Source: Chloroflexota bacterium (GTDB lineage: Bacteria > Chloroflexota > Dehalococcoidia > UBA2979). From it: 64,000 nucleotides of DNA. Under the pieces are notes generated by a model. The model was not told where the DNA came from and made no database searches. It saw only the letters and a program-made list of their open reading frames with translations. Shown here one piece after another: positions 5,017 to 21,540 of this stretch; position 1 is the stretch's first letter; each line of letters opens with the position of its first letter. The stretch lies in contig VGPD01000003.1 of assembly GCA_016875635.1 (NCBI GenBank), positions 29,896-93,895 of the forward strand. Direction: 5' to 3'. Both the position numbers and the translations under genes were made by a program.

Positions 5017-5045
5017 TTGACGGCGCGCCGCCGGTCAGCCACACT
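5017..5045 (+). promoter_or_regulatory. Candidate promoter of the ilvB leader: TTGACG, 17 bp, CACACT
   Basis: -35-like TTGACG at 5017-5022 and -10-like CACACT at 5040-5045, about 10 nt before the leader ATG at 5056. Confidence 0.45.
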
Positions 5046-5055
5046 CAAAAGCGTT

Positions 5056-5139
5056 ATGGCGAATCTGACTTCCCCCCTCGCCGTCTCTGCGCAGGCTGCC
5101 ACCCTCGGCGGTCTCCTCCTCGTACTCGTACTTACCTAG
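5056..5139 (+). CDS. Putative Leu/Val-rich leader peptide upstream of ilvB (MANLTSPLAVSAQAATLGGLLLVLVLT)
   Basis: 27-codon ORF with the run CTC CTC CTC GTA CTC GTA CTT just before ACC TAG, 120 nt upstream of ilvB, followed by a hairpin with a short T tract. Confidence 0.65.
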   Translation: MANLTSPLAVSAQAATLGGLLLVLVLT

Positions 5140-5170
5140 GCGGCGCCTGCTCTCGCAGACGTCGCCTGTG

Positions 5171-5192
5171 CCGCTCGCGTGTCGAGCGGTTT
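5171..5192 (+). terminator. Attenuator-like hairpin CCGCTCG-CGTGT-CGAGCGG followed by TTT
   Basis: Perfect 7-bp stem between the leader stop codon and the ilvB start. Confidence 0.5.
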
Positions 5193-5255: not shown

Positions 5256-6947
5256 ATGACCAAGATGACCGGCGCCGACATCGTCCTGACCTGCCTCGAA
5301 CGGCTGGGCGTGGACACCATCTTCGGATACCCCGGCGGCGTCGTCCTGCCCCTGTACGACCGCTTCCCCGCCCACCCGAAGGTCCGCCACATCCTCGTCC
5401 GCCACGAGCAGGGCGCGGGACACGCGGCGGACGGCTACGCCCGCGCCTCAGGCCGCCTCGGCGTCGCGCTGGCCACTTCCGGCCCCGGCGCGACGAACCT
5501 CGTCACCGCGATCACGAACGCGCACATGGACAGCGTCCCCACGCTCTTCATCACCGGGAACGTCGCCCGCAACCTGCTGGGCCGCGACGGCTTCCAGGAG
5601 GCCGACATCACCGGCATCACGATGCCGATCGTGAAGCACAACTACCTCGTCATGCGCGCGGAAGACCTCGCGCCGGCGTTCGCGGAGGCCGCCTATCTGG
5701 CGATGTCCGGCCGCAAGGGCGCAGTGCATATCGACATCCCGAAGGACGTCTTCCTGGAGGAGGCGGAGTTCGTCTGGCCGGAGCACGTCTCGGTCCGCGG
5801 CTACCGAGTCCCTGGTGAGGCCTCCATCGCCGACGTGCAGCGGGCCGCCGCAATCATCGACAGCGCGGAACGCCCGATCATCTTCGCCGGCCACGGCATC
5901 CTGCTCGGGGACGCGACCGAGGAACTGCGCGCGTTCGCCGAGCGCGGCGGCATCCCAATCCTGAACACTCTGCTCGGGCTCGGGTCGATCCCGCCGGAGC
6001 ACGTCCTCTCCTACGGGATGATGGGGATGCACGGCTCCTACTGGGCGAACCACGCCGCGAGCAACGCCGACGTGATCATCGGCCTCGGGATGCGCATGGA
6101 CGACCGCGCGCTCGGCCGGTTCCAGGACATGAACCCGACCGCCCAGATCGTCCACGTCGACATCGATCCCGCCGAGCACGGCAAGAACCTGCCGACGGCG
6201 CTGCCGGTCATCGGCAACGTGAAGCACGTCCTTCAGCAGCTGACCAACGCCATCGAGCGGAAGTCTCACGTCGACTGGCTCCGCTGGATCAACGATATCC
6301 GCGACGGACACCGCGCCTCGATGTCGGTACCGCCGGGGAACGAACTCACCACGCAGTACGTGGTCTCGAAGATCGCGGAGTTCGCCGGGCGCGAGGCCGT
6401 GTTCACCACCGGCGTCGGCCAGCACCAGATGTGGGCCGCTCAGTTCATGAACATCGGCCGGCCGCGCCAGTTCATCACCTCGGGCGGCCTCGGCACCATG
6501 GGCTTCGAGGTGCCGGCGGCGATGGGCGCGGCAGTGTCCTGCCCCGACCGACAGGTGTGGACCATCTGCGGCGACGGCGGCTTCCAGATGACCTTCCAGG
6601 AGATCGCCACCATGGTGGACGAACAGATCCCCGTGAAGATGGCCATCATGAACAACGGCTTCCTGGGCATGGTCCGCCAGTGGCAGGAGTTGTTCTACGC
6701 GAACAACTACGTCTCCGTGGCGATGTCCCAGCCGGACTTCCTGAAGCTAGCGGACGCCTACGGCATCAAGGGGATCCGCGTCACCGACCAGTCGCAGGTG
6801 GAAGACGCCATCCGCGAGGCCGCGGCCTACGCCGGGCCCGTGATCCTCGACTTCCAGGTGCAGGCGGAGGGCAACGTCTGGCCCATGGTCCCCGCCGGCG
6901 CCGCCCTGAGCGAGACCATCGAGGCGCCCGAGGGCGTCGCCCGCTAG
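5256..6947 (+). CDS. ilvB: Acetolactate synthase, large (catalytic) subunit
   Basis: ThDP enzyme motifs RHEQGAGHAADGYARASGRLGVALATSGPGATN and ICGDGGFQMTFQEIATM; followed by ilvN and ilvC. Confidence 0.95.
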   Translation: MTKMTGADIVLTCLERLGVDTIFGYPGGVVLPLYDRFPAHPKVRHILVRHEQGAGHAADGYARASGRLGVALATSGPGATNLVTAITNAHMDSVPTLFITGNVARNLLGRDGFQEADITGITMPIVKHNYLVMRAEDLAPAFAEAAYLAMSGRKGAVHIDIPKDVFLEEAEFVWPEHVSVRGYRVPGEASIADVQRAAAIIDSAERPIIFAGHGILLGDATEELRAFAERGGIPILNTLLGLGSIPPEHVLSYGMMGMHGSYWANHAASNADVIIGLGMRMDDRALGRFQDMNPTAQIVHVDIDPAEHGKNLPTALPVIGNVKHVLQQLTNAIERKSHVDWLRWINDIRDGHRASMSVPPGNELTTQYVVSKIAEFAGREAVFTTGVGQHQMWAAQFMNIGRPRQFITSGGLGTMGFEVPAAMGAAVSCPDRQVWTICGDGGFQMTFQEIATMVDEQIPVKMAIMNNGFLGMVRQWQELFYANNYVSVAMSQPDFLKLADAYGIKGIRVTDQSQVEDAIREAAAYAGPVILDFQVQAEGNVWPMVPAGAALSETIEAPEGVAR

Positions 6948-11850: not shown

Positions 11851-12474
11851 ATGCGCGCGATCAAAACCGTCAAGGGCAACGCGATCCCGCTGAACCGCGC
11901 GGACGTGGACACCGACCAGATCATGCCGAAGCAATTCCTGAAGCGCATCGAACGCTCCGGGTACGGCCCATTCGCCTTCTTCGACTGGAAGAAGGACCCG
12001 AACTTCGTCACGAACAACCCGGCCTACGCCGGCGCGCCGATCATGATCGCCCAGCAGAACTTCGGCTGCGGCTCCTCGCGCGAGCACGCCGTCTGGGGCC
12101 TCGAGGACATGGGGATCACCGCGGTGATCGCCCCGTCGTTCGCGGACATCTTCCGCAACAACTGCTCGAAGGTCGGCCTCCTGACCATCGTGCTGTCGCA
12201 GGAGGACGTGGACTACCTGATGTCGCGCGCCGAGGAACTCCCCGGCGGCAGCATCGTCATCGACGTCGCCGCGCAGACCGTCTCCGTCGAGGGCACCGGA
12301 TGGTCCCGCCACTTCGACATCGACCCGTTCGTGAAGCACCGCACCCTGAACGGCCTCGACGACATCGGCCTGACGCTCCAGCACGCCGACGACATCGAGA
12401 CGTTCGAGAAGGAGCGCCCATCGCTCAAGCCGGACACCTCCGGTGCCTTCAAGGACCCGCTCAAGATCGGCTAG
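11851..12474 (+). CDS. leuD: 3-isopropylmalate dehydratase, small subunit
   Basis: NRADVDTDQIMPKQFLKRI and NFGCGSSREHAVWGL. The ATG directly abuts the leuC TAG. Confidence 0.95.
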   Translation: MRAIKTVKGNAIPLNRADVDTDQIMPKQFLKRIERSGYGPFAFFDWKKDPNFVTNNPAYAGAPIMIAQQNFGCGSSREHAVWGLEDMGITAVIAPSFADIFRNNCSKVGLLTIVLSQEDVDYLMSRAEELPGGSIVIDVAAQTVSVEGTGWSRHFDIDPFVKHRTLNGLDDIGLTLQHADDIETFEKERPSLKPDTSGAFKDPLKIG

Positions 12475-13396
12475 TCCCCTCCCCGCCGCCGTCGTCGCCG
12501 CGCTCCGCCGTGTCGATCCGGCGGCGCGGCCCGCGTCGGCGGCGTTGCTCGGCGCCGGCTACGCGTACGCCGCCTACAGAGTCCCCTCACCGTCCGGCGA
12601 CTGGGCTGTCCGTCTCCCCAAGCGCACCGATGGCGAGTGGGGCCACGACCGCGTCGAGGACCTCGAACGCGAGGTGCGCTTTTTCAGCCTGCTCGCGGAC
12701 TACGACTTCGGCACGACCGTCCTGCGCGAGACCTCGTTGCTGCGCGACCCGCGAGGCCGCACGCTCGGCGCCGTTCACCGCTATGTCCCCGGCGCCCAGG
12801 TCGCGACAGCAGGCCTGCCCAGAGGCGCAGCCCGCGAGGCGCTCGCCCGCGACCTCGCCCGCTTCCTCTCGCGGCTGCACGCGGTGCCGCTTCCGATCGC
12901 CAAGCAGGCCGGCCTCGAATCCGTCAGCCTCGGGACCTCCACCTACACTCCACTGACGAAGCAGTCCCTCCCCTACCTCGGCGAGGCGACGGCCCGATGG
13001 CTGCGCGGGATGACCGAGGCCTTCCTCGCTGGCGGCGGGACGGCAAAGGCCCCTCGCCGCGTCATCCACGCCGATATCAGCCCCGCGCACGTCCTGCTGG
13101 ACGGCCGGCGGCGGCTCTCCGGGGTCATCGACTTCGGCGACATCCTCGTCGCCGACCCGGCCCTCGACTTCGCCGGCCTGCTCAACATCTTCACCTGGCG
13201 CGACCTCGAAAGTGTCTGGACGTACTACGAGTGGCCTCTCGACGCCGACGTGGAACGCCGCGTGCGCTACTACATCGCCGTGCAGGCGATCTTCCAGGTC
13301 GCCTACGGCGCGGACGGCGTCGGCCCGCAGGAGCGTGCGGACGGCATCCGCCGCCTGACGGCGCGGGCGGCCGCCGCGGCGCGCCGCACCGTCTGA
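12443..13396 (+). CDS. Aminoglycoside phosphotransferase (APH) family protein
   Basis: APH-fold [15 protein letters not shown]...[18 protein letters not shown]. Start uncertain; the GTG overlaps leuD. Confidence 0.8.
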
Positions 13397-21305: not shown

Positions 21306-21540
21306 CCCGCCGGTCGGGCTGTCCCGTCTGCCTCCGAGGTTAGCTGTCGGGTTCGGGCCGGTCAGTACGCCCGTCTCTGTGCGCCCTCGCTCAGAGATTC
21401 ACCCCAGGTATTGGGTCCCCCGGTCGCCGCCCTCCCGGACGGCAATTAGGCAAGTCACCCCACCCTCAATGCTCCTCGGAGATGACGTCCGTGAACCATC
21501 GTGATTGTGACGACAAGAGCATACTGGCGGTTAACGCCCT

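Follow-up and report, generated by a model that had tools for sequence, protein, structure and literature searches.

Does the short open reading frame (ORF) that precedes ilvB in the 64-kb stretch of Chloroflexota DNA analysed here (the window) encode a leader peptide, and, if ribosomes translating it control the genes downstream, how is their position read? An earlier note had described a TTGACG-17 bp-CACACT element, a 27-codon ORF with seven Leu/Val codons in a row, and a perfect CCGCTCG-CGTGT-CGAGCGG hairpin followed by TTT, and had proposed ribosome-mediated attenuation. All three elements are present upstream of ilvB, the hairpin with its TTT at 5171–5192, and were checked both by reading the sequence and by script (Table 1). 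The proposal of attenuation itself is supported, with qualifications: the ORF and its codons are conserved and the stems covary, but the hairpin of the note turned out to be the second of two and a poor canonical terminator, and a competing antiterminator was not found.

Table 1. Features of the ilvB leader region, in positions of the window
Feature	Position	Strand	Details and support
Sigma-70-type promoter TTGACG-17-CACACT	5017–5045	+	-35 at 5017–5022, 17-nt spacer, -10 at 5040–5045
Leader-peptide ORF MANLTSPLAVSAQAATLGGLLLVLVLT, stop TAG	5056–5139	+	ATG at 5056; leaderless or nearly so; kept in 41 family ilvB regions
hp0, tentative hairpin in the leader ORF (AGGCTGCC / GGCGGTCT)	5093–5114	+	just 5′ of the control codons; predicted in many members
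Control codons CTC CTC CTC GTA CTC GTA CTT	5113–5133	+	codon conservation by position; GTA enrichment
hp1, begins at the stop codon	5137–5168	+	core GGCGGCG 5139–5145 / CGTCGCC 5160–5166; predicted fold and coevolution
hp2 (GCCGCTCG-CGTGT-CGAGCGGT) and short T run	5170–5192	+	core CCGCTCG 5171–5177 / CGTGT / CGAGCGG 5183–5189, then TTT 5190–5192; degenerate terminator-like, conserved CGTGY loop
ilvB, acetolactate synthase large subunit	5256–6947	+	ATG at 5256; NCBIfam TIGR00118 and neighbours

The leader region of the window

The leader ATG starts 11 nt past the final -10 base, a near-leaderless start that is absent from the earlier note. Most ilvB and leuS leaders of the window's family (see below) combine a TTGAC(G/A/T) -35 element with a -10 element resembling GATACT or CACACT, and the distance from the first -35 base to the leader ATG is nearly constant across them, at 36–42 nt. 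Judging from this promoter–ATG distance and the transcription start that it predicts, the ilvB leader mRNA would be leaderless or near-leaderless. A generic promoter and terminator scan called no site at the leader locus, because the -10 element departs from the consensus used and the U-tract is not long enough.

The ORF encodes 27 amino acids and ends in CTC CTC CTC GTA CTC GTA CTT ACC TAG. Such an ending is rare: of the 814 small ORFs (8–60 aa) in the window, no other has at least six consecutive L/I/V residues near its end, and 20 windows simulated with a first-order Markov model yielded no ORF with a comparable run. Downstream of the leader the genes are arranged as ilvB-ilvN-ilvC-leuA-leuC-leuD-(APH-like)-leuB, where the ORF between leuD and leuB (12443–13396, plus strand) encodes an APH-like phosphotransferase (Pfam PF01636). 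Elsewhere in the window, a c-di-AMP riboswitch (ydaO/yuaA, RF00379, 79.7 bits) lies at 21314–21462 on the minus strand.

In addition to the hairpin described before (hp2), we found a second and stronger one, hp1, which the earlier note lacked. In all 56 elements the distance between the T of TAG and the start of hp1 is 0–2 nt, independently of the length of the peptide, and hp2 begins 0–8 nt past hp1.

Conservation of the ORF, its codons and its hairpins

We analysed the family of the window's genome, whose members (44 genomes) were retrieved by an IlvB search at 65–96% identity. The leader is present in all 41 readable ilvB upstream regions; 39 of these loci were detected by a covariance model and two, from AT-rich genomes (L191, L200), by eye. 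The three assemblies that gave no readable leader region are G003 and G027, with no full-strength ilvB match, and G063, with no leader match. Conservation of the ORF and its codon run in related genomes, and covariation of the stems, had been suggested as checks on the original proposal, and both are found. A covariance model built on the leader end (R1) matched nearly every family genome. A model of hp1 and hp2 (R2), used to search the family for further operons, gave confident matches at ilvB and leuS alone, along with marginal ones; a marginal match at G063:C4, when opened, contained no ilvB leader. The stop codon is TAG in 39 of 39 ilvB leaders and 17 of 17 leuS leaders detected by model.

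Comparison of duplex energies within and between species revealed coevolution of the arms of both hairpins (z = -6.2 for hp1 and -8.7 for hp2). When 40 elements were aligned (a few short leuS rows only imperfectly), 94.5% of the cells pair (95% in hp1 and 93.5% in hp2), with 34 double changes as against 10 in shuffles; in hp2, four of the five pairs have changed on both sides. Sliding the structure along the alignment abolishes the signal. hp0 was supported neither by the same duplex test (z = -1.0) nor by a test against synonymous shuffles (mean z = -0.56).

The codons at the end of the ORF are conserved position by position, the ilvB consensus being CTC GTA CTC GTA CTT, one variable codon and TAG. 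GTA accounts for 55 of 69 Val codons near the ends of the ilvB leaders, as compared with 8 of 316 in nine ORFs of the window and 0 of 13 in leuS leaders (p about 2e-44 and 4e-8, respectively; the rows are related, so these values are indicative only). CTT is also enriched (51 of 207 versus 6 of 276). leuS is preceded by an element of the same build, whose leader ends in a Leu-rich run; in the window's own assembly (G000), no leuS match was found above the family cut-off. A scan upstream of valS revealed Val leaders with GTA at 10 of 30 family loci, among them that of G000 (L225, G000:C20:22600-23600). There, a Val-rich small ORF with GTA codons, MDTKRVRAVLVAVVPVVVR, ends in TAG and is followed by a hairpin past the stop and then by a second hairpin with TTTTGTT.

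The conserved choice of the rare codons GTA and CTT, together with the Leu-only leuS leaders and the Val leaders of valS, argues for codon-specific sensing of charged tRNA. Base composition would not easily account for the codon contrast between ilvB and leuS within one family. Across 58 model-detected leaders, synonymous codons differ predictably by operon, with GTA at ilvB and valS and GTC at leuS, and this operon-specific use provides a natural test of isoacceptor-specific sensing.

Proposed sensing and readout of ribosome position

We consider it highly probable that the ilvBNC-leuACDB cluster is under a ribosome-sensing attenuator. Transcription would start at the ATG or a few nucleotides before it, and ribosomes would load on the leaderless message and translate the peptide. 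If Leu-tRNA or Val-tRNA (Val being read via the rare GTA) is short, the ribosome would stall on the control codons; if both are plentiful, it would reach TAG. A ribosome extends about 12 nt 3′ of the codon that it is reading (PMC4833913). On TAG it would mask the 5′ arm of hp1 and block the hairpin, and a stall at the earlier control codons would leave hp1 free to form. The state of hp1 would then lead to a transcription stop when amino acids are plentiful, or to continuation when they are scarce, at or near hp2. Of this scheme, the ORF, its codons, the two hairpins and their conservation are shown by the sequences, and the transcription start, the stall, the block of hp1 and the stop at hp2 are predicted.

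In folding with the ribosome footprint imposed, hp1 is lost in the stop state and largely retained in the two stalled states (L028 is an exception), and hp2 does not respond consistently to the position of the ribosome. It also counts against the model that a ribosome halted on the final control codons (GTA at -3 and CTT at -2) would partly mask hp1 too. In a duplex test on set segments, which a hidden or non-conserved competitor could escape, no conserved helix competing with hp2 was found, and only hp1 and hp2 showed clear within-species complementarity. hp1 and hp2 are adjacent without overlap, and the 3′ arm of hp1 pairs less well with hp2 of its own species than with that of others, indicating that cross-pairing is avoided. 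The usual antiterminator step is therefore missing from the scheme, and the ilvB leader appears to lack the mutually exclusive antiterminator of the classical trp/ilv-type attenuator.

It is possible, though we hold this only tentatively, that the leader is an attenuator without a competing antiterminator, in which ribosome position sets hp1 only and the readout is either a non-canonical stop (hp2 with its CGUGY loop and poor U-tract) or Rho. Such a device would serve ilvB and leuS in one Chloroflexota family, which has a related Val leader before valS, as opposed to the T-boxes used for ilvB in some other families of the class.

The likeliest output of sensing ribosome position is termination at hp2, ahead of Rho or translation. 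At ilvB, T makes up 51% at each of the first two positions after hp2, about 40% over +1 to +9 and about 12% beyond, and the valS leaders close with a clearer hairpin and T-run than those of ilvB. The U-tract of hp2 is weak in many ilvB leaders, and at leuS, where T enrichment after hp2 was looked for, there was none and no U-tract. Two 20-kb parts of the window showed no enrichment of terminator-like sites, and for this reason canonical terminators may be rare here.

With the same sensor, termination could instead depend on Rho and take place in the C-rich sequence that separates hp2 from ilvB, the hairpins serving as barriers or loading control and not as an intrinsic terminator; this is somewhat less plausible, and we regard it as unlikely. 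The genome has a rho gene (TIGR00767), the tail past hp2 is C/A-rich and T-poor beyond +9, hp2 of leuS has no U-tract, and Rho was put forward for actinobacterial cys leaders without terminators (PMC1262725). However, the T enrichment directly past hp2 at ilvB and the clear hairpin with T-run at valS point the other way, and there is no obvious route by which ribosome position would gate Rho.

It is also conceivable, but rather improbable, that the same sensor acts on translation or mRNA stability, translation of the leader altering access to the ilvB start or cleavage by RNase. The lowest-energy fold of the window leader (a fold of this single sequence) pairs the CTC codons with the ilvB Shine-Dalgarno region, and the actinobacterial LEU element, a pseudoknot in which Leu codons pair with the Shine-Dalgarno box, was described as working in such a way (PMC1262725). 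The spacing between hp2 and the start of the IlvB match, however, varies widely, in part because some genomes have their true start further upstream.

At ilvB the hp2 loop is unusually conserved while the hp2 stem covaries, as would be expected if a trans-acting protein bound the hairpins through the CGUGY loop and the peptide were of little weight. We consider this very improbable, as the loop is conserved neither in most leuS leaders nor in several ilvB members, and codon identity tracks the regulated amino acid operon by operon. It is extremely improbable that the ORF is a functionless product of chance or an artefact: small ORFs are common (the 814 of the window), but this ORF, its codons, its stop codon and both stems are kept family-wide.

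Precedents and neighbouring leaders

The attenuator proposed above would be a known kind of switch with an unusual build, in a little-studied Chloroflexota family. In a literature search of partial coverage, leader-peptide attenuation of these genes was not found described for Chloroflexota, and an Rfam search of the leader returned no family above chance even at E<=10.

The closest precedents are the actinobacterial leaderless leaders before ilvB and leuS. Streptomyces lividans has the leaderless leader peptides IlvL (ilvBHC) and LeuL2 (leuS) (PMC8079986), that is, leaderless short ORFs with Leu/Val/Ile codons at the same two genes, followed by hairpins; they differ in peptide sequence, in the U-rich terminator region described for them, and in phylum (Actinobacteria). 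The ilvBNC attenuator of Corynebacterium glutamicum (ilvB-II motif) likewise has a BCAA leader ORF with the control codons CUU and GUA, and its translation start is one nucleotide from the transcript start (PMC11857589, PMC10272879). Its overlapping antiterminator and terminator are supported by mutations, whereas a conserved competing helix was not found here. In Mycobacterium tuberculosis ilvB1NC, too, there is a BCAA uORF (LVVI in that case) with GUA as a regulatory codon, and a ribosome at the stop was proposed to mask an upstream structure (PMC13236596). That system, however, has an antiterminator overlapping the terminator, a U-tract and a leader of 166 nt, which in the sense reported is not leaderless (PMC13236596). 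Among the other uORF motifs that Narunsky and colleagues describe for ilvB (PMC10272879), ilvB-OMG and ilvB (Leptospira) also place uORFs with many BCAA and Thr codons ahead of the gene but differ from the Chloroflexota leader in lineage and structure.

For most of the other families of the class, the search upstream of ilvB found no BCAA leader. Some of these regions contain a T-box (L128 and L130, by Rfam), which is a sensor of tRNA charging as well but binds the tRNA directly and involves no peptide; the ilvB leader of the window has no Rfam match to the T-box family (RF00230). T-boxes and leader peptides thus serve the same gene within one class, and the leader raises the question of how ribosome position can be read without an obvious antiterminator.

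We also noted a class-I tRNA synthetase gene in G000, ileS by its look (L224, G000:C53:2500-3600), which by eye has an apparent T-box with both GGGTGGTACCGCGG and a terminator, so that a single genome may contain T-boxes as well as leader peptides. Outside the family, the region upstream of ilvB in G059 (L111) contains a T-box-like GGTGGTACCGCGG and a terminator, and then an ORF whose product ends in LVLLPLPLI, a possible case of tandem control. Finally, small ORFs with WWW are found upstream of trpE at L282, L286, L291, L292, L298 and L304. They do not form a uniform family of leaders; several have their stop close to the trpE start, suggesting, from this arrangement, a Trp leader with translational coupling.
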